DNA of 64,000 bases from Rhodothermia bacterium. Lineage in GTDB: Bacteria; Bacteroidota; Rhodothermia; Rhodothermales; UBA2364. The stretch is from NCBI GenBank assembly GCA_017303715.1, contig JAFLBZ010000008.1, positions 62,001-126,000 on the forward strand. The letters are read 5' to 3'. A program made the translations under genes and the position numbers. Shown here piece after piece: positions 6,887 through 51,302 of the stretch. The notes below the pieces were generated by a model, which was given only the letters and a program-made list of their open reading frames with translations, ran no database searches and was not told the origin of the DNA. Numbering within the stretch: position 1 is the first letter of the stretch; the number at the start of each line of letters is the position of its first letter.

Positions 6887-8554
6887 ATGAGCACTATCCA
6901 ACTCAATCTTTCTGATCGGCTTGCTTCGGGTACGGTTGTTGGGCGGTTTGTTGTGGGGCAATGGCTGGCTTCGGGCGGAACAGCTGATATCTATGGCTGT
7001 TATCCTGCGTCGGATTTCCGCCCACCGGCCTCGGCAGAGGCGTACCGATACGTCATAAAACTTTTCCGATATCAGGGCGATGCCGAGCAGTACGACCGAA
7101 GGGTTCGCCTTTTTGATAAAGAGGTGACAACCTTGCGCAGTTTGTCTGGAAATATCCACATTATCAATGTCTTAGAGCATGGGGATTATGTGGCTAAACC
7201 GGATGTAGCGGGGCGTCCTTTCTGTGTATTGCCTCGGATGTCTGGCGGCACGCTGACAAGTCTTATCCATCATACCCAACTTACAGAAGATCAAACGGTT
7301 AATATTGCACTTGGATTGGTGGATGCCCTGCAATTTGCCCATCATCGGGCAATTTTGCACTGCGACATTAAGCCGGATAATGTGATGTTGGATGATAGCC
7401 TTAATCCAATCTGGATTGATTTTGGGATTGCGAAAGAAATTGATACCCGCACAGATGTGGTTTCGGTGATGAGCGAGGTCGGAAATGTGGCGGTTGGCAC
7501 TGCCCCTTATATGTCTCCAGAACACTTTGCAGGCCGTCATGCGCTTTGCCCACAGTCCGATCTATGGAGCATGGGGGTGCTTATGGTTAGGATGCTCACC
7601 CGTACCTACCCCTTTGGGATGCACTTTGAACAAGTACGACAACGAACGTTGATACAACGCTGGGAGACCTTGGAGCAATTACCCGCTTTTAAGGAAACAG
7701 GGCTTCCGCTTGAGATTTCCAAAGAAATGCAAGCCGTATTAGTGAAGTGTTTACAGGTGGAATTGGAGGATCGTTATCAGACAGCCGCCGAGTTGAAGTC
7801 GGATTTGCTCGCGTTGCAACAACATCGTATCCCGACGTATGCCCTACCCGGCGAAGCTGCCGTTGCCGAGACAGAATCAATGACGATGGAAGTGGCCATG
7901 CCGCTTAAGCCAGATCAATCGGCAAGTGGGTTAAATGAAAAAGAGGCGCCGCAAAGTAAGAAACTCCTTCGTTGGTTAGGCTTGGGGATCTTAATTCTAT
8001 CGGGAAGTTTTGGAAGTGCGATGCTGGCAAACCGTTTTTTGGGGAATACCCCGTCTGAGGTAGTCAATACGCAGGCGGGGGAGCCGAAAATAAAGCAACC
8101 AAACCAAAACAATCCAGGGGGCAATACCCAAAAGATGGTAGAAAACACCCCTCAAAATGTGCGAACGAATAGCCCCGCTGTAGGTACGCCTTATGTGGAA
8201 CAAAGTAATCTAAGATCACTCTCATCCGATCCTATTTCCGGAAGCACAACCCCCGTTTCTCCAAGTGCCCAAAAAGAACTGCCCAAAACAACGACCACCA
8301 TAGAGGAGACCCCTGTAAAAGTACAGGTACAGTTTGTGCCAAACATGAATTACGATGCCAGTAGATCGGGGATAAATCACAAAAGTTATAACCCCTCATC
8401 GGGGATAATTAAACCATTTGATTATTATGTTGGTCAAACAGTAGAATGGCGTGTTATTGGAAATGGTACTTTGGCCGGAAAAATTTGCGCTGGAAAAGAA
8501 GTTCTCTCCGAAGACAAGCCACTCAAAATAGATTGGACTAAAAACTGTCAATAG
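6887..8554 (+). CDS. Transmembrane Hanks-type Ser/Thr protein kinase
   Basis: Protein kinase of 555 residues with a cytoplasmic N-terminal kinase domain (about residues 20-310). ATP-binding Lys is in VIKLF (K58), with a likely partner Glu79. The catalytic loop is HCDIKPDN (158-165), the Mg-binding DFG is at 178-180, and the APE-like motif is SPEHF. The catalytic loop has HCD instead of HRD, making it a non-RD kinase, and the glycine loop (ASGGTADIY) is degenerate. A single membrane segment lies at about 361-381. The remaining 170 residues, rich in Asn/Thr/Pro and ending in a small domain with two Cys, should be periplasmic. It heads a seven-gene same-strand cluster of exported proteins, suggesting a sensor that reports on, or controls, that envelope system. 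Confidence 0.9.
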   Translation: MSTIQLNLSDRLASGTVVGRFVVGQWLASGGTADIYGCYPASDFRPPASAEAYRYVIKLFRYQGDAEQYDRRVRLFDKEVTTLRSLSGNIHIINVLEHGDYVAKPDVAGRPFCVLPRMSGGTLTSLIHHTQLTEDQTVNIALGLVDALQFAHHRAILHCDIKPDNVMLDDSLNPIWIDFGIAKEIDTRTDVVSVMSEVGNVAVGTAPYMSPEHFAGRHALCPQSDLWSMGVLMVRMLTRTYPFGMHFEQVRQRTLIQRWETLEQLPAFKETGLPLEISKEMQAVLVKCLQVELEDRYQTAAELKSDLLALQQHRIPTYALPGEAAVAETESMTMEVAMPLKPDQSASGLNEKEAPQSKKLLRWLGLGILILSGSFGSAMLANRFLGNTPSEVVNTQAGEPKIKQPNQNNPGGNTQKMVENTPQNVRTNSPAVGTPYVEQSNLRSLSSDPISGSTTPVSPSAQKELPKTTTTIEETPVKVQVQFVPNMNYDASRSGINHKSYNPSSGIIKPFDYYVGQTVEWRVIGNGTLAGKICAGKEVLSEDKPLKIDWTKNCQ

Positions 8555-8607
8555 GTTTTTTAACAAAGGCTACGGTCTGCAATCCTGCCTTTAAGACATA
8601 GATATAC

Positions 8608-10002
8608 ATGAAAAACCACCGCTGTTTTGTGTTTCTGCTCCTTTATTTGGGGCTTTTCTCGTATGCTGACGCACAAAGTACGCCAACACTTTTGCCTCGT
8701 GCTTTCAAGTGCGAAGAACTTAAAACGGCCTTTCAACACTACGCCTATTCCGAGTTTGAAGAAACCCGTATCGCATTGGCCGCACTCAAAGACGAGGCCC
8801 TTTCACCCACCTGCAAGGCCGAAAAATACATGCTCGTTGGGGCGGTTAATGTGGTTTCTTTCATGATGAACCAGTCTGGAACATTTGAGGAGGCAGACCG
8901 CAATTTTGTAGTGGCGCTTCTTGCAGACCCATTCCGGGCAATGGATGAGGCCGCGTTCCCGCCGCTGCTTATTCGGAAGCGTTTCGAATATAACCGTCAA
9001 CAACTGAACCAAGGCGACCTACAAATGGCCTCATCCGATGTGGCCGATAGCCCTGAATCGGCCCTGCACAGTGCAGAGTTAAACGCAGTTCGGTCTTACG
9101 TGGGACAATATTTTTCTCCAGAGCGATTTGCCACGATCCTTTCCGATACCGATATGGCCGAGGCCATTCTTTCGGTACGTCATGCAAGTAAGAGCCGGAT
9201 CGAAGAATTGGTACGAGATTCTTCTGGCGTCACCGTTTCTGCCGCCAACCTAATTAACCGTAAAAGCATCCTGTCCTCGGTTAACCAAAGTGGTGTTTTG
9301 TTCGATATGGAAAAGCCTTATGTACGCTTGGACATTACCGAGACCATTGAAGGGGCTTCAAGCCAGAGTCGTGTGGCCCTAACCGGAATAAAAAAAGCCC
9401 TCCAAGAGGCGGGATTTACGGTGATAGACGAAACGACGCCCAATACGGAAGCACATATTTTGGTAAGAGGCAATGTGGATGCGGCTGCCGATAGAATTGG
9501 CATGGGAATGGGATGGGGGGGATGGGCGATTGCTAACCTAACGATGCGGTGGGCGGATGGAAGTAACTATGAGTTTGGGTCTCAAATCGAGAAAAAAGAC
9601 GGAAAAGGCAAGATGATGCAACGGGAGGCCGCTTTTTCGGCGTTGGAAAACCTAACCGCCACACTTGCCAGTCATATCAAACAAACCTGCATCTCGGAGT
9701 GGAATAGCCGCACCTTGAATGGCGCCATTCATCTGATTGAACTTCGTGGTAACTTAAATTACGAAGACTTCCGCAGGATGTTGGTACAACTCTCCACATT
9801 TGCGCTAAATGATCCCTTGGATAACCCACGTTTCGTAGCAGATGGAACAACGCTGGTCTATATCCGCTATCGTCCACAAGACGGGGATTTGGCCGATGTA
9901 ATCCGTCGGGAAGGGTTTTACAACCTGAGCAAGAGCTATAAAACCGAAGTGCAACAAGTGTCTTTTAATCATATTGTCCTCAATGTGAAAGCGGATCTCT
10001 GA
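8608..10002 (+). CDS. Exported protein, FlgT/CsgG-like features, function unknown
   Basis: Protein of 464 residues with a clear signal peptide (MKNHRCFVFLLLYLGLFSYADAQ, cleavage after ADA) and no lipobox. Residues 30-130 look helical and TPR-like. Residues 230-340 contain an alternating beta/alpha segment (VRLDITETIEG, GIKKALQEAGFTVID, EAHILVRGNVDA) reminiscent of the CsgG/FlgO/FlgT superfamily of periplasmic envelope proteins. A run GMGMGWGGWAIA precedes a beta segment. The C-terminal 80 residues form a second possible domain (RGNLNYEDFRRMLVQL). This family assignment is inference from pattern, not a confident match. It follows the kinase by 53 bases and precedes two CsgG-like genes. Confidence 0.6.
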   Translation: MKNHRCFVFLLLYLGLFSYADAQSTPTLLPRAFKCEELKTAFQHYAYSEFEETRIALAALKDEALSPTCKAEKYMLVGAVNVVSFMMNQSGTFEEADRNFVVALLADPFRAMDEAAFPPLLIRKRFEYNRQQLNQGDLQMASSDVADSPESALHSAELNAVRSYVGQYFSPERFATILSDTDMAEAILSVRHASKSRIEELVRDSSGVTVSAANLINRKSILSSVNQSGVLFDMEKPYVRLDITETIEGASSQSRVALTGIKKALQEAGFTVIDETTPNTEAHILVRGNVDAAADRIGMGMGWGGWAIANLTMRWADGSNYEFGSQIEKKDGKGKMMQREAAFSALENLTATLASHIKQTCISEWNSRTLNGAIHLIELRGNLNYEDFRRMLVQLSTFALNDPLDNPRFVADGTTLVYIRYRPQDGDLADVIRREGFYNLSKSYKTEVQQVSFNHIVLNVKADL

Positions 10003-10041
10003 TTTTTCAAAAAAGGCGTCCTACGCCGCACGGTTATTACC

Positions 10042-10908
10042 ATGTCTCTGTTTAATTTTAAACGCTCTGTTCGTGTTTTTTTCGGATGGGGCGTTTTATG
10101 CTTCCTCCACACGGGGATGTTACAAGCCCAAGAAACAGCTGGCCAAGCCAATTTACGGGATAGTATCCAGACGGATAGCGCGTTCATAGCACCAAAGCCC
10201 GATACTATTCGGGTGGCGGTATGGCCTTTTCAATATACGGGATTGCTCCAAAAAGAAACGGACTTGGCGTATGCCAGTGGTCTCCGATTGCTTTTGGGGG
10301 CATACCTAAGTGCCTATTCCACCATCCGAACGAGCGACAGGGTAGAAATGCAGGAAGTGCTACAAATGGCACAACTTAGCCGTTTCGGCCCAGAGAGTCA
10401 GTCCATCCCCCTCGATTTTGAAGGAGCGGACTATATCATTATGGGACAATACTTTATGCGAAATCGGACGAGTTTTGCACATTTACAAGTCCGCATGTTT
10501 TCAGTAAAAAATGGCGCGATTCTTGCAGAACGACATTTAAATCTCCCTCGGCTCTCGATAGAGCGGGTTCCTGCTTTTTTGCAAGCATTTGCCCAAGACG
10601 TGGCAACTAAACTAGAACGTAGCGAAGCGACTCCGGATTTCTCCTCGCAAGTAACTTGTAAAAAAGGTGGAATTCAGTGGCTCATGCAAGCTGCCGCAGA
10701 CCGTGAAGCAGCATTTGTAATGGAAGATCTGACCTTGGCCGTCGAAAAATTGGATAAAGCCATTGTCGGTTTTGAACGAAGTAAAATCCGCTTATGTGGT
10801 TCTGGCTGGTTGGATCGGGAGATTTCGGAGACGCAAAACATGCGTAATGCACTCCGCCGCATACTCGATTCCCCTATCGAAGAATCCAATGAACCGAAAA
10901 AACCATAG
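10042..10908 (+). CDS. Exported CsgG/FlgO-like protein
   Basis: Protein of 288 residues with a signal peptide (residues 1-30, ending LQAQ) and no lipobox Cys at the cleavage site. Residues 50-190 have the CsgG/FlgO-like alternation: IRVAVWPFQYTG, a helix over LAYASGLRLLLGAYL, a strand with IRTSDRVEMQEVL, then GADYIIMGQYF and HLQVRMFSVKNGAIL. Known members include CsgG, the curli export pore lipoprotein, and FlgO/TolB-N periplasmic proteins. Absence of a lipid anchor argues against a classical CsgG pore. Two Cys occur in the C-terminal helical region. The 3' end overlaps the next gene by 20 bases. Confidence 0.65.
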   Translation: MSLFNFKRSVRVFFGWGVLCFLHTGMLQAQETAGQANLRDSIQTDSAFIAPKPDTIRVAVWPFQYTGLLQKETDLAYASGLRLLLGAYLSAYSTIRTSDRVEMQEVLQMAQLSRFGPESQSIPLDFEGADYIIMGQYFMRNRTSFAHLQVRMFSVKNGAILAERHLNLPRLSIERVPAFLQAFAQDVATKLERSEATPDFSSQVTCKKGGIQWLMQAAADREAAFVMEDLTLAVEKLDKAIVGFERSKIRLCGSGWLDREISETQNMRNALRRILDSPIEESNEPKKP

Positions 10909-12337
10909 GGCGTATTTACGCTGGCTCGTCGCTTTCTTGTTGGTTCCGCTGCTAAGTCCAGTACGGATAATGGCACAAGGTGTAGAAACCCGCATCAATA
11001 CACTCTTAGACAGTGCCGATGGTCACTTAGAACGTGGGCGTGCGCAACAAGCCTTAGACGCACTTGTCCAAGCCGCTACTTTGGCAGATTTGCCAGACCC
11101 TACAGACCTACGTGCAAGAGGCGTTTCCAAAGGGAACCCAGACCTCTTTGGTAGAATCCTCATTTCTCGTGCCCGCGCTTATGAATCCTTAGAGTCTTTT
11201 GCTGAAGCACGGAATGATTATTTGGCTTTTCTGGCACTCAATCCCTCTGGAGACCATGCCCAAGCGGCCCGCTCGCAAATCCAACACATAGATAAGCAAG
11301 CAATTCGCTATCTGACCAACATAAGCCGACAGAATGAAAATAGGCTGTCACGGTTTTATAACCGAGAAGAAAGCCGATTTACGATTGGGGTTTTACCCTT
11401 TTTGAACCAAAGCCAAAATGCCGACCTTAGTCGTGTTGGGTTTGGGATTTCGGGATTTCTTACGACGGTTTTTTCTTCTTTAGGACGGTTAACGGACGTG
11501 CCTTTCACTACTGTGGAGCGTTCGCGGCTAAATACCATTCTGACCGAAGTTAACATTGGCCGGTTTTACGGTGGTGACAGGAAAATTGCCCCGCCATCGG
11601 TGGGCAAGATTTTGGGCGCTGAATTTATTGTAACAGGCTTGGTCAGAACAGAAGGTGGCCGCCTGACGGTTCAGCCGATTCTTACACACGTTCCAAAAGA
11701 CACCTCGTATGTATTGCCCGCTAGGAGTGCCGCTGAAAACAATACGGGACTTAAAACGCTTCAGGAAGAATTGACCTTTGCCGTTGCCGACCAAATTCAG
11801 CGTATCACCCGTTTTAAATATACCAATGGGCGGATGGCCTTTTCTAATGCCATTGGTACAATTGTAGCCGATGACTTACAGCGCTTCTTGATGTTCTCAC
11901 AAGGCTTTGATATGGCAGAAGCCGGCACTTCCGATCCGGCGGGGCAAATCCTTTCCGACGCCAATGTGGGCATTACCGCACGCGACCGAAATGCCGTAGA
12001 ACAAACACGGGTTGTGGTACTGCAATCCTACACGAATGTCACTGATATTTTAAGCCAGACAGCCGGTTTTGGAGGGTTTGCTGGCGGCGGTGGCGGGGCA
12101 ATTGCGGCGGGTAACTCAAGTAAAAAAGTGATCAAAGCCATTAATTTTGGCTATGCCGCTACCCAGTTGGGTTTGCTTTCGCTGGGAGCTGCCGGAATAA
12201 CCGATGGTGATGCCGGCATTGGCACGAATGTAAACGAGACAGGAGACGCCACAAATAAACCGCCCGGAACCTTAAATCCAGCCAACCAAGCCTTTATTCG
12301 GGTACAGGTGGTTGCTCCTTTGCCAAAATCCAACTAA
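10889..12337 (+). CDS. Exported TPR plus CsgG-domain protein
   Basis: Protein of 482 residues. I chose the ATG at 10889 because it gives a good signal peptide (RWLVAFLLVPLLSPVRIMAQ); the frame is open further upstream but lies inside the previous gene. Residues 30-135 are TPR-like (RINTLLDSADGHLERGRAQ, ARAYESLESFAEARNDYLAF). Residues 150-300 form a CsgG-type domain: FTIGVLPFLNQSQNADLSRV, FTTVERSRLNTILTE, GKILGAEFIVTGLVRTEGG. A Gly-rich linker (GGFAGGGGGAIAAG) follows near 390. It is the clearest CsgG-like member of the cluster and overlaps the upstream CsgG-like gene by 20 bases, so the two are probably co-translated and may act in one complex. Confidence 0.7.
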   Translation: MNRKNHRAYLRWLVAFLLVPLLSPVRIMAQGVETRINTLLDSADGHLERGRAQQALDALVQAATLADLPDPTDLRARGVSKGNPDLFGRILISRARAYESLESFAEARNDYLAFLALNPSGDHAQAARSQIQHIDKQAIRYLTNISRQNENRLSRFYNREESRFTIGVLPFLNQSQNADLSRVGFGISGFLTTVFSSLGRLTDVPFTTVERSRLNTILTEVNIGRFYGGDRKIAPPSVGKILGAEFIVTGLVRTEGGRLTVQPILTHVPKDTSYVLPARSAAENNTGLKTLQEELTFAVADQIQRITRFKYTNGRMAFSNAIGTIVADDLQRFLMFSQGFDMAEAGTSDPAGQILSDANVGITARDRNAVEQTRVVVLQSYTNVTDILSQTAGFGGFAGGGGGAIAAGNSSKKVIKAINFGYAATQLGLLSLGAAGITDGDAGIGTNVNETGDATNKPPGTLNPANQAFIRVQVVAPLPKSN

Positions 12338-12346
12338 CCAAACCCT

Positions 12347-13540
12347 ATGAAGCGCCTCTGCTGCCCCGTAACATATTCCGGAAAATGGGCTTTTGGCCTG
12401 TTCTTGGCTGTTTTTGTGTGGTGTTATTTGCCACCACAAGTTTTTGCACAAATCTCGCCGGGTACGCCTTATAGCACAGCCATTCAATTGTTCAGCCAAC
12501 GTTGGACAATACGTGAAGGTGAAGAGTCTGTTCAAATCTCGCAAACCGTTTTGCCCATCGGGATCTATCTGCCCTTTAAAGATCGGTTCGAGATGCGGCT
12601 CTCTTCGTCATACCTAAACTTTCAAAACCTTGCAGAAAATGTCCAAACAACTGTAAGTGGGCTTTCGGATTTAAAAATACAAGCGGGCTATGCGCTCAAT
12701 ACAGAACGGCGCATGGTGGTGAATACCGCCTTTAGCTTACCTACGGGTGTGAGTAAGCTAACCGACAAACAGCAAGACGTTGTGACGGATTTTATCTCGC
12801 CGGATTTGTCCGTCCGAGAAAACCGACTGGGCGAAGGCTTTAATGCCGGTGGAACTTTCTCTTTTGTGACAGATACCTCGGAGGAGGGGTTGCTTGGTGG
12901 CGCCGTAGGATTTTTGCATAGAGGCGCTTTCCAAACTGCTTTAATTAATGCAGACAAGAGTGTGACCCTAAAGCCGGGATCGGAGACGACCGTCACCGCC
13001 GCATATAGCCACACCACGCCAAGTTCTTTTTTCCAAATTAGTCCCACCTTGACGTTCTATGGTGATGAACATATTAATGGCCTGAAAGCCCTAAGACTTG
13101 GCCCCAAGTTCCAGACCCAAGTTTTGGCGACCAAAATGTTTAACAAGCGAAAGGGTTTATTAACAACCGCGCTTCAAGGTGTGGTTCGTGGGGAGACTAT
13201 GACTTTCGAGGAAAGTGCCGAGGTTTTCCATATTAAAAATCCCAATAGCTTAACCATTCTTGCTTCGTTAGACTATAACCTGATGGCCAAACTACGTTTA
13301 ACCCTGACGGGGGTAGGGCGTTTTATACGCACCTCAACATCGGAAGAAGAAATGGTGGTAACAGGTTCAGGAACCAGCAATGTGTTTGAAGAAGGCGCAA
13401 CCTTGAGCTATGCTGTGAGCAAATCGGCTACACTGAGTTTAGGACAACGGTATATCACTGGGCGTGGAACTAATGCGAAATCCGAAATCCGAACCATTAA
13501 CGGTTTTGAGACCTTTCTAAGAACTTCCATAAGGTTCTGA
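12347..13540 (+). CDS. Probable outer-membrane beta-barrel protein
   Basis: Protein of 397 residues with an N-terminal signal peptide ending VFAQ. The rest consists of many short amphipathic beta strands separated by polar turns, ending in an aromatic residue (TFLRTSIRF), as expected for a Gram-negative outer-membrane barrel. Strand patterns such as KIQAGYALNTERRMVVNTAFSL resemble the MetA-pathway-of-phenol / DUF3187-like barrel families, but I cannot assign it firmly. It starts nine bases after the TPR-CsgG gene, so a role as the outer-membrane component of the cluster is a reasonable inference. Confidence 0.65.
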   Translation: MKRLCCPVTYSGKWAFGLFLAVFVWCYLPPQVFAQISPGTPYSTAIQLFSQRWTIREGEESVQISQTVLPIGIYLPFKDRFEMRLSSSYLNFQNLAENVQTTVSGLSDLKIQAGYALNTERRMVVNTAFSLPTGVSKLTDKQQDVVTDFISPDLSVRENRLGEGFNAGGTFSFVTDTSEEGLLGGAVGFLHRGAFQTALINADKSVTLKPGSETTVTAAYSHTTPSSFFQISPTLTFYGDEHINGLKALRLGPKFQTQVLATKMFNKRKGLLTTALQGVVRGETMTFEESAEVFHIKNPNSLTILASLDYNLMAKLRLTLTGVGRFIRTSTSEEEMVVTGSGTSNVFEEGATLSYAVSKSATLSLGQRYITGRGTNAKSEIRTINGFETFLRTSIRF

Positions 13541-13572
13541 AAAAGGCACGGGAGACCTTAAAGAATAAAGAC

Positions 13573-14382
13573 ATGAAGTATTTCTTTTTAAGTGCTTGGT
13601 TTGCTGTGGCGTTGATGGCCTCTGGTTGCGACATGCAAAATATGGGCGGGCGGAGTGTAACGGTACGCCCCAAGTTGCAAATTGATTTTGTGGAGCCAAG
13701 AATGTTGGATGGTTCTCCTTGGCAGCATGATGCCCTTTCAAAAACACAGGCCATCTGGACTGTTAAGCTAACCGTAATCTCGAAGGGCGGTCGGGATTAT
13801 AGCCCACAACAAGCCATTACAGCCGACAATACCACACAGAACGAGGTTTTTTTCGATCTGCAATTGCCTTTAGACTCCACCTTTACCTTTCGTGTGGAAT
13901 ATAGCCAAAATGGGCAGTTACGTGCTCGTGGCCAGACCCTTCAGCGCATTACCCGCGATAACTTTATTGTATATATGAGGGCTGCTTTTCTGCCCGAAAA
14001 CAGCACAACGCCCGTAGTCGGTTTTGGGCCTTCAATTGTTTCTGTGAAAGCGAACAATGGTGAACTGAAAATGGCCTTGATGATTGATGGTACAACCGAG
14101 GTCATCAAAGCCGTAGCCGGCAAATTGAACATCACCGGCATAGACCCTACACGTATTCGCTTTAAAAATGCCCTGACCATCCGGCAAAATTATGGTGTAG
14201 ATCTCGCATGGGCATATCCCACCGGAAGGCGTGCACCTTTTGTATTGGATACCTTATTTGTCCCGCTGAATACACCCGCTGATGTGGAAATGAAATTCCA
14301 ACAGGGATCATTACAGTTGTTGACCGACCCCAATACGGTACGCTCTTACGCAGTTACCGATGCACGGGTAATCATTAAATAG
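13573..14382 (+). CDS. Lipoprotein of unknown function, possibly cohesin-like C-terminal half
   Basis: Protein of 269 residues with a lipoprotein signal (hydrophobic stretch then ASGC, Cys at residue 19). The first half is beta-rich (IWTVKLTVISKGG, FTFRVEYSQNGQLRARGQ). The C-terminal half (about residues 155-269) begins GPSIVSVKANNGELKMALMI and ends with YAVTDARVIIK, with a middle part GVDLAWAYPTG and LDTLFVPLNTPADVEMKF. That strand pattern is compatible with a cohesin-like jelly roll, which would be notable because the next gene encodes a dockerin-like module. This is only a fold suggestion. The start lies 32 bases after the barrel gene. Confidence 0.6.
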   Translation: MKYFFLSAWFAVALMASGCDMQNMGGRSVTVRPKLQIDFVEPRMLDGSPWQHDALSKTQAIWTVKLTVISKGGRDYSPQQAITADNTTQNEVFFDLQLPLDSTFTFRVEYSQNGQLRARGQTLQRITRDNFIVYMRAAFLPENSTTPVVGFGPSIVSVKANNGELKMALMIDGTTEVIKAVAGKLNITGIDPTRIRFKNALTIRQNYGVDLAWAYPTGRRAPFVLDTLFVPLNTPADVEMKFQQGSLQLLTDPNTVRSYAVTDARVIIK

Positions 14383-14409
14383 CCTTTTTCACGCCTGAAC
14401 CCTACGACC

Positions 14410-16041
14410 GTGAATCGTAATAAACGAATAAAAAATTTCCTTTTGTTGGGCATCCAGTTGTGCTTAGGCCATGTGGGTATCTTATGGGCACAACCCAAAG
14501 CACCTATTAACGTTGTGGCAACTCCGCTACGAGAAACACAAATTCAGCTAAACTGGCGGACAGAAAGCCTGAATGTCGCCAACGTTCTAATTGAGCGCCA
14601 GCAAAACTTTGGGAACTGGGAAATACTTACCGTAAGACCAACACTGAACGAGATAAGTTATTTAGATACAGGTCTAAGCAATGGAGCCTACTATTGTTAC
14701 CGCATGTATGCAGAAGGGACGGGTGGGCGCTCTATTGCGTCTGATATGGCCTGTGCATTGACCGGTAAACAAATAGAAGGAACCCCCATTTTAGCACAAA
14801 TTGCCCTGGCTGATCCTGTAACCATTGCCGTTGGATGGGCGGTAAACCAAGCCGAAAACTACCGCTTTAGGGTTCAGAGACGAACGCCTACGGGGGGATG
14901 GCAAACGATTGCGGAAGAATTAGAAAAGACGGTTTGGAGCAATACCGACTTGGACGAACTTTCCACGTTTTGTTATCGGGTTCAAGGATATAAAACTGGT
15001 TTTGCCTCCGAATACAGTGCCGAGGCATGTCAGACAACCTATGTCCTGACCCCACTTCCAGTCAAAGACTTGATTTTGTCTAACGATGCCACAAACCCTG
15101 ATCATGCCCTACGTGCCTCATGGAAACAAGGCGATCTATTCCGCAATGTGGTTTTTGAAGTTCAGAGCCGTCGCGCTGGCGAGTCTTGGGGCGGCACGCA
15201 AACGGTTGTAACGCCTACTTTCGAGTTGAACAATCTGCCAAATTTAACGCAATACGAACTGCGGGTGCGGGCAAGGCGGACGATCAGCAACATCACCTTA
15301 TTTTCGGAGTGGGTCACATCCGGCTCTGTCAATACTTGGCTCGCCATTTGGCCCGGAGATACGGATGGCGATGGACAAGTAGGCCCAGCCGATATTACGC
15401 GCCTAACCAACAGTTCGGTATATGGCAAGCGCTCTTCGTTCTCTGGAACACCCATTTCAACGACCCTCAACTGGGAAAAACTGAGTATTAATCCGGGCAA
15501 TGCAGACGTGAATGTACTTCGGGCGGATGCCAACCGAGATGGACTGGTGGATGTCTATGATCTCTTTCCGATTGTGGCCAACTATGGGCGGCGGGTATCC
15601 GGTAGCCCGTACATGAACACAATAGCCCGCATCACCGAGAAACAACAAGCGGACTTGATCCGACAAATGGAGGCACAGCTTCGTCAAGATCCCATTGCCG
15701 GGGTCATTGCAGATGATCTAAAGACGTTATTGCGCACTTGGGAAGAAGTACAAAACGACCAAACCGCTACCACCCCAAAACAGACGGGGCTTTTGCCTAA
15801 TTTCCCCAACCCCTTTAGTGGATATACCAACTTGAGCTGGCAACTGGCGGAGGCCTCGGCGGTCAAGATTTTGGTTGTAGATATTTTGGGACGGGAACAG
15901 GTCTTGGTAAATAGCGAGTCCATGTCCGAAGGGGTGCATCATATAACGTGGCAACCACAAAACCTTGCCGCCGGAACCTATTTTCTGGTTTTTGAGGTCA
16001 ATGGTTTGCGTACTACCCGAACCATACAAAAGGTTCGTTGA
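14410..16041 (+). CDS. Secreted FN3/dockerin-like protein with T9SS type A sorting domain
   Basis: Protein of 543 residues from a GTG start, with a signal peptide ending ILWAQ. Residues 30-310 contain three fibronectin type III-like repeats (for example PINVVATPLRETQIQLNW; ANVLIERQQNFGNWEIL; VVFEVQSRRAGESW). Residues 315-395 hold two dockerin-type calcium loops, DTDGDGQVGPADI and DANRDGLVDVYDL, about 60 residues apart. The C-terminal 80 residues are a type IX secretion sorting domain (LLPNFPNPFSGYTNLSWQL, VKILVVDILGRE, GTYFLVFEVNG). It is predicted to be exported through the outer membrane by T9SS and kept at the surface. It is the last gene of the kinase/CsgG-like cluster, 27 bases after the lipoprotein gene. 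Confidence 0.85.
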   Translation: MNRNKRIKNFLLLGIQLCLGHVGILWAQPKAPINVVATPLRETQIQLNWRTESLNVANVLIERQQNFGNWEILTVRPTLNEISYLDTGLSNGAYYCYRMYAEGTGGRSIASDMACALTGKQIEGTPILAQIALADPVTIAVGWAVNQAENYRFRVQRRTPTGGWQTIAEELEKTVWSNTDLDELSTFCYRVQGYKTGFASEYSAEACQTTYVLTPLPVKDLILSNDATNPDHALRASWKQGDLFRNVVFEVQSRRAGESWGGTQTVVTPTFELNNLPNLTQYELRVRARRTISNITLFSEWVTSGSVNTWLAIWPGDTDGDGQVGPADITRLTNSSVYGKRSSFSGTPISTTLNWEKLSINPGNADVNVLRADANRDGLVDVYDLFPIVANYGRRVSGSPYMNTIARITEKQQADLIRQMEAQLRQDPIAGVIADDLKTLLRTWEEVQNDQTATTPKQTGLLPNFPNPFSGYTNLSWQLAEASAVKILVVDILGREQVLVNSESMSEGVHHITWQPQNLAAGTYFLVFEVNGLRTTRTIQKVR

Positions 16042-51226: not shown

Positions 51227-51230
51227 GGAG

Positions 51231-51302
51231 TATCCAGTACGGGACTCGAACCCGTGTTGCCGCCGTGAAAGGGCGGAGTCCTAACCGCTAGACGAACTGG
51301 AC
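51231..51302 (-). tRNA. tRNA-Glu (UUC)
   Basis: Reverse complement folds as a cloverleaf: acceptor GTCCAGT (51302-51296) pairs with ACTGGAT (51238-51232) with one G-U pair, discriminator A at 51231. The D-arm contains CTAGCGGTTAGG. The anticodon stem CCGCC...GGCGG frames loop CTTTCAC with anticodon TTC, and the T-loop GTTCGAGTC closes the T-arm. CCA is not encoded. The gene reads toward its own terminator at 51194-51226. Confidence 0.95.

Follow-up and report, generated by a model that had tools for sequence, protein, structure and literature searches.

The window analysed here is a 64,000-nucleotide stretch of the genome of a Rhodothermia bacterium (assembly GCA_017303715.1, contig JAFLBZ010000008.1, positions 62,001 to 126,000). 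Its positions 6887-16041 hold a cluster of seven open reading frames (ORFs) on the + strand, with intergenic gaps of 53, 39, -20, 9, 32 and 27 nucleotides. The first ORF encodes a transmembrane Ser/Thr kinase, and the products of the other six are named by their lengths in residues: A464, B288, C482, D397, E269 and F543. It is close to settled, from sequence comparison, that the cluster is homologous to a conserved module in which a kinase adjoins CsgG-like proteins, an outer-membrane barrel, and a surface protein with a tail of the type IX secretion system (T9SS). The same comparison identifies it as a divergent copy of this module that is specific to the genus. We call the seven-gene cluster of this genus window-type, and the form of the module found elsewhere, including a second copy in the same genome, canonical.

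The kinase (555 residues, 6887..8554) matches the Pfam family Pkinase (E 5.8e-34), contains the motifs VIK, HCDIKP, DFG and SPE, and is of the non-RD type. Hydropathy divides it into a cytoplasmic kinase domain, a single hydrophobic segment at residues 363-381, and a C-terminal extracytoplasmic segment. The kinase scores 91 bits against a profile of module kinases built without window-type sequences, part of which reflects general kinase similarity.

Two exported proteins, A464 (8608..10002) and B288 (10042..10908), occupy the space between the kinase and C482, which in the module is the place of a protein that we call CsgG-like 1. A464 has a putative helical, TPR-like N-terminus and a putative C-terminal alpha/beta part. 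Its residues 37-132 weakly match the TPR part of CsgG-like 1 (E 0.012), and a short stretch weakly matches an 838-residue protein found beside the module in the loci L101-L103 (E 0.007). Pfam gives no match to A464 above its cut-off, and no fold is assigned because the AlphaFold2 model, based on an alignment of its three sequences, has a predicted local distance difference test score (pLDDT) of 40. B288 probably contains a diverged CsgG-fold domain. It has no Pfam family match, but can be aligned in register with the CsgG core, and hhalign matches it to the core region of the profile of the module's second CsgG-like protein, CsgG-like 2, with an E value of 5e-4 but a weak probability of 32%. 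B288 is likely the counterpart of CsgG-like 1, judged from its position and these weak matches. No convincing homologue of A464 or B288 was found beyond the genus among 109 genomes of the order.

C482 (10889..12337) is composed of TPR repeats and a CsgG-like part, and corresponds to CsgG-like 2 of the module. It matches the CsgG-like 2 profile built without window-type sequences with 73 bits (E 4e-21). The Pfam CsgG match is just past the cut-off (21.2 bits against 20.8), covers half of the profile only, and stops at position 98 of 210. C482 has a signal peptide and no lipid-anchor cysteine. Searches of the PDB with the sequences of C482, A464 and B288 returned nothing useful, and those with both CsgG-like profiles gave matches dominated by TPR proteins.

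D397 (12347..13540) is predicted to form an outer-membrane beta-barrel of about 16-17 strands (AlphaFold2, pLDDT 78, 11-row alignment), and matches the barrel profile built without window-type sequences with 79 bits. The closest structural match of the model is CdiB (Z 21.0, root mean square deviation 3.3 over 298 residues). No barrel subfamily is assigned, because the fold matches span many unrelated barrels, including CdiB/FhaC, BcsC and porins. E269 (13573..14382) is a probable lipoprotein without a known family, since its N-terminus contains a lipobox-like ALMASGC and Pfam gives no match above the cut-off. F543 (14410..16041) is a secreted surface protein with two FN3 domains (fn3, E 1.7e-6), weakly matching dockerin-like calcium-binding repeats, and a T9SS type A C-terminal sorting domain, recognized by Por_Secre_tail (E 1e-7) and TIGR04183 (30.5 bits against a cut-off of 23). 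Two cohesin matches lie elsewhere in the genome, and no link between them and the cluster was found.

An earlier interpretation of this DNA from its letters alone, the sequence-only reading, had listed the same seven + strand ORFs with coordinates and gaps that were all reproduced. Its naming of the transmembrane kinase, the TPR-CsgG protein, the outer-membrane barrel, the lipoprotein and the FN3/dockerin/T9SS protein is borne out by the matches, motifs and barrel model given above. The label FlgT/CsgG-like for A464 is not confirmed, and of the label CsgG/FlgO-like for B288 only the CsgG part finds an echo, in the weak core match; there is no FlgO match. The same reading had proposed a single operon. 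An operon-like unit is supported. Two other genomes of the genus have the identical seven-gene order; one of them, UBA2364, is assigned by NCBI to Bacteroidota Order II. Both also share the flanking genes, namely a RelA-type gene upstream on the opposite strand and, downstream, a PPIC gene (the eighth gene) and an ACSL gene. Promoter and terminator scans of the cluster gave nothing above chance.

The ratio of nonsynonymous to synonymous substitution rates (dN/dS) is 0.04-0.16 for all genes of the cluster for which it could be estimated, C482 being the exception, and 0.065-0.109 for E269; these are rough values, since synonymous sites are near saturation. The conservation of A464 equals that of the flanking RelA and ACSL proteins. 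The low ratios indicate that the cluster genes are under purifying selection and, together with the recurrence of the gene order in both congeneric genomes, show that the cluster is no chance effect.

Loci related to the cluster were gathered by similarity to C482 alone, and later to CsgG-like 1 alone, and were then read with their surroundings. The module is widespread among the families of this order and extends to other classes of the phylum. By the test that the sequence-only reading had set itself, the kinase, CsgG-like, barrel and T9SS-tail genes do recur as a cluster in many genomes. Its core combines an outer-membrane barrel and a large surface protein that ends in a T9SS-type tail with two exported TPR/CsgG-fold proteins, one of which is as a rule a lipoprotein. 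The usual order is FHA, PP2C, kinase, TPR/CsgG-like 1, the TPR/CsgG-like 2 lipoprotein, the surface protein and the barrel, in some cases preceded by TssBC of a type VI secretion system (T6SS), a contractile machine for protein injection. Our counts cover the 26 loci, window-type clusters excluded, in which the stretch read contains CsgG-like 2 as well as the barrel. Some of these loci also served as seeds for the profiles, and those cut off at contig edges were counted without correction. The kinase gene is present in 22/26 loci and almost always precedes the CsgG-like genes, and a T9SS-type tail protein is likewise found in 22/26. An FHA gene is found in 20/26 and a PP2C gene in 16/26. Pfam independently detects T9SS or FlgD_ig tails in L021, L025, L026, L029, L030, L049, L050, L100 and L103. 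The window cluster brings the kinase, CsgG-like 2, barrel and T9SS-tail protein together on one strand. Its order is that of L100, from another class of the phylum, in which kinase, CsgG-like 1, CsgG-like 2, barrel and tail protein follow one another. The openly licensed papers searched yielded no account of such a module, although absence there is no proof of novelty.

A canonical copy of the module is also present in this genome, within a T6SS locus on another contig, C22 (L041, G000:C22:38000-57900). The genes there are ordered FHA-SLT, PP2C, kinase, CsgG-like 1, CsgG-like 2, barrel, FHA, TssJ, TssK, TssL and TssM, and Pfam confirmed the T6SS, FHA, PP2C and kinase proteins. Both congeneric genomes also possess a T6SS-linked canonical copy. 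In other genomes, tssJKLM or a TssB-TssC fusion gene (Pfam VipA and VipB) often adjoins the module. Co-occurrence was counted in 78 genomes of the order with completeness of at least 90%, taking a full-length CsgG-like 1 as the module and TssK as the T6SS. The module is present in 13/17 genomes with TssK versus 6/61 without it (Fisher p 2e-7, uncorrected for shared ancestry). TssK lies less than 50 kb from the module on the same contig in 9/13, and TssBC adjoins the module in two more. The T6SS locus is thus a frequent site of the module, but not an obligatory one, because the module also exists without a T6SS. The sequence-only reading saw neither this second copy beside tssJKLM nor the FHA, PP2C and T6SS context of the relatives.

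Several loci contain variants of the module or unusual partners. One more variant is suggested by L044, L046, L031 and L051, where two CsgG-like 1 genes lie in tandem and the stretch read contains neither CsgG-like 2 nor a barrel. The 838-residue exported protein beside the kinase-less loci (L101:6141-8651, L102:8598-11111, L103:16020-18521) contains TPR repeats and gives a weak transglutaminase-like match; on visual inspection, its N-terminus resembles CsgG/FlgT. The surface proteins in L025:10334-17197, L030:10390-15294 and L023:10742-19903 are giants of 1600 to over 3000 residues, and those of L025 and L030 are built from HYDIN/ASH-type Ig repeats, best known from proteins of eukaryotic cilia. 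An FHA and a lytic transglycosylase (SLT) domain are joined in one protein in L021:1466-3343, L049:15871-17628 and L041:16963-19899, an unusual pairing of phospho-recognition with wall-cutting. An FHA-type match lies inside a protein that starts like an FAD oxidoreductase, beside cytochrome-like genes, in L026:6584-9022, L098:13013-15394 and L099:4660-7017. A 632-residue TssB-TssC fusion in L059:399-2294 matches VipA (TssB) and the N-terminal domain of VipB (TssC).

Curli-like export through the CsgG-like proteins was considered and rejected. As an explanation, it would make these proteins an outer-membrane secretion channel for the FN3/dockerin protein, and it draws on the Pfam CsgG match present in C482 and every relative scanned. 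In alignment with CsgG of E. coli K-12, however, C482, B288 and their relatives lack about 20 residues of transmembrane hairpin 1 and most of hairpin 2, and the match in C482 is truncated as described above. No CsgE, CsgF or curlin gene is present among the seven cluster genes or the eighth, PPIC. F543 needs no CsgG pore for its export, given its T9SS signal and the presence in the genome of SprA (E 1.9e-83) and 79 T9SS-tail matches. Export through CsgG is therefore unlikely on the sequence evidence, and the explanation as a whole is largely refuted, with only a very slim chance of being right. Judged by its sequence, the CsgG-like core that is left resembles the periplasmic cores of LpoB and FlgO. 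The profile of LpoB matches 9/10 CsgG-like 1 proteins (best E 1.4e-8) and that of FlgO 6/10 (best E 3.9e-5); the window proteins have no Pfam match to FlgO, FlgT or LpoB. The sequence-only reading was right that neither a curli nor a flagellar context fits. Of its proposal of a kinase-controlled envelope assembly that exports or anchors the T9SS protein, the recurrent cluster stands, and CsgG-mediated export falls to the missing hairpins and to the cell's own T9SS.

The transmembrane kinase of T6SS control, PpkA, receives its input from exported proteins whose genes lie near its own, namely TagQRST in Pseudomonas and RtkS in Serratia; PpkA phosphorylates Fha and PppA opposes it (PMC6082577). 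By analogy, we tentatively propose, as a possibility somewhat short of probable, that the proteins of the module assemble in the envelope and at the surface, and that the kinase monitors the state of this assembly. The surface protein would exit through the ordinary T9SS of the cell. Holding or sensing it would be the task of a platform in the outer membrane and periplasm, made up of the barrel and the CsgG-fold/TPR proteins. The state of the platform would be relayed to the extracytoplasmic part of the kinase, which may then phosphorylate a cytoplasmic partner, the FHA protein where present. We infer this signalling role from the canonical module, which shares the kinase, PP2C and FHA with T6SS control and swaps the exported inputs, so that a platform read by the kinase is the simplest explanation. 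On a broader and more speculative view, which we hold with a little less assurance, hairpin-less CsgG-fold/TPR proteins and a barrel that hold a T9SS-delivered surface protein and report to a transmembrane kinase may constitute an undescribed, phylum-wide envelope machine. Such a machine would have been recruited as an input arm of the T6SS in several families, and would work free of a T6SS in others, including the window copy.

Several observations weigh against this proposal. L101-L103, from another family and another class, retain the core without any kinase, and signalling may therefore be an optional addition. The T6SS-linked copies of the genus, in three genomes, lack the T9SS-tail surface protein. 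The window copy contains two genus-specific exported genes, A464 and B288, and no FHA or PP2C gene, and window positions 1-25000 gave no T6SS match. For this copy the mechanism is one step further removed. Its FHA and PP2C partners, not being encoded nearby, would need to operate at a distance, perhaps supplied by the T6SS locus on contig C22, unless the output is a different one. The proposal does not account for A464 and E269. Phylogenetic trees of the kinase, CsgG-like 2 and the barrel each place the window-type sequences together, apart from the canonical ones, on one very long branch (3.2-3.9 changes per site), so the function of the window copy may have shifted. The rooting and exact placement in these trees are uncertain, and hence they do not demonstrate a recent duplication.

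The long branches and the missing FHA, PP2C and T6SS neighbours would also suit a functionless remnant of the T6SS-linked module. Seven ORFs intact in three species, their low dN/dS, and the conservation of A464 at the level of RelA and ACSL contradict such decay, which is scarcely credible. A more serious explanation is that the barrel, the CsgG-fold/TPR proteins and the lipoprotein form an anchor or an assembly platform for the T9SS-delivered surface protein, with the kinase an optional regulator of expression or turnover and no receptor. The kinase-less core of L101 and L103, in the order CsgG-like 2, tail protein, barrel and CsgG-like 1, favours this explanation (no tail protein was found in L102), as does the tail protein near the barrel in 22/26 loci. 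However, the kinase is equally frequent and keeps its position upstream of the CsgG-like genes, and the T6SS-linked copies of the genus retain kinase and barrel without a surface protein; we consider kinase-independent anchoring unlikely. The CsgG-fold proteins may instead resemble LpoB in function and switch peptidoglycan enzymes under kinase control, opening or bracing the wall for an envelope-spanning machine. The LpoB matches of CsgG-like 1 and the SLT domains of FHA partners speak for wall remodelling, but the window proteins lack an LpoB match, and their cluster has neither a peptidoglycan enzyme nor an FHA-SLT protein, which leaves this explanation distinctly doubtful.

Beyond the cluster, the remaining ORFs at window positions 19500-64000 look metabolic or housekeeping, judged by their first residues, and no T6SS genes were recognized by eye among them. 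A tRNA-Glu gene lies at 51230-51302.

If a platform read by the kinase is correct, the module would be a source of signals from the outer membrane and the cell surface for kinase control of the T6SS outside Proteobacteria, for which few upstream sensors are known. It would also connect T9SS surface proteins, CsgG-fold proteins and T6SS phosphorylation, three envelope systems on which research has proceeded separately. The synteny yields direct, testable predictions of protein contacts.

The module shares features with four known systems and differs from each. It resembles the CsgG curli channel in the CsgG core domain, present in C482 and weakly in B288; the window cluster differs in lacking the hairpins, CsgE/F and curlins, in the TPR fusion, and in the adjoining kinase. 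With LpoB and FlgO it shares a hairpin-less CsgG-type core, and CsgG-like 1 relatives match both profiles, whereas the TPR fusion, the linkage to a kinase, a barrel and a T9SS-tail protein, and the lack of a profile match in the window proteins set it apart. F543 is like other T9SS type A cargo in its Por_Secre_tail and in belonging to a genome with a T9SS; as one of 79 tails, it is unusual only in its tie to a conserved barrel, CsgG-like and kinase cluster. The T6SS threonine-phosphorylation pathway differs in its exported part, which is TagQRST, confined to Pseudomonas (PMC6082577), or RtkS, rather than TPR/CsgG-fold proteins, a barrel and a T9SS-tail protein, and the window copy is without adjoining FHA, PP2C and T6SS genes. 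The relatives, including the copy in the same genome, nevertheless resemble this pathway in having a transmembrane kinase beside PP2C and FHA in T6SS loci and exported proteins encoded next to the kinase, and the window kinase itself combines a Pkinase domain, a hydrophobic segment and an extracytoplasmic part.

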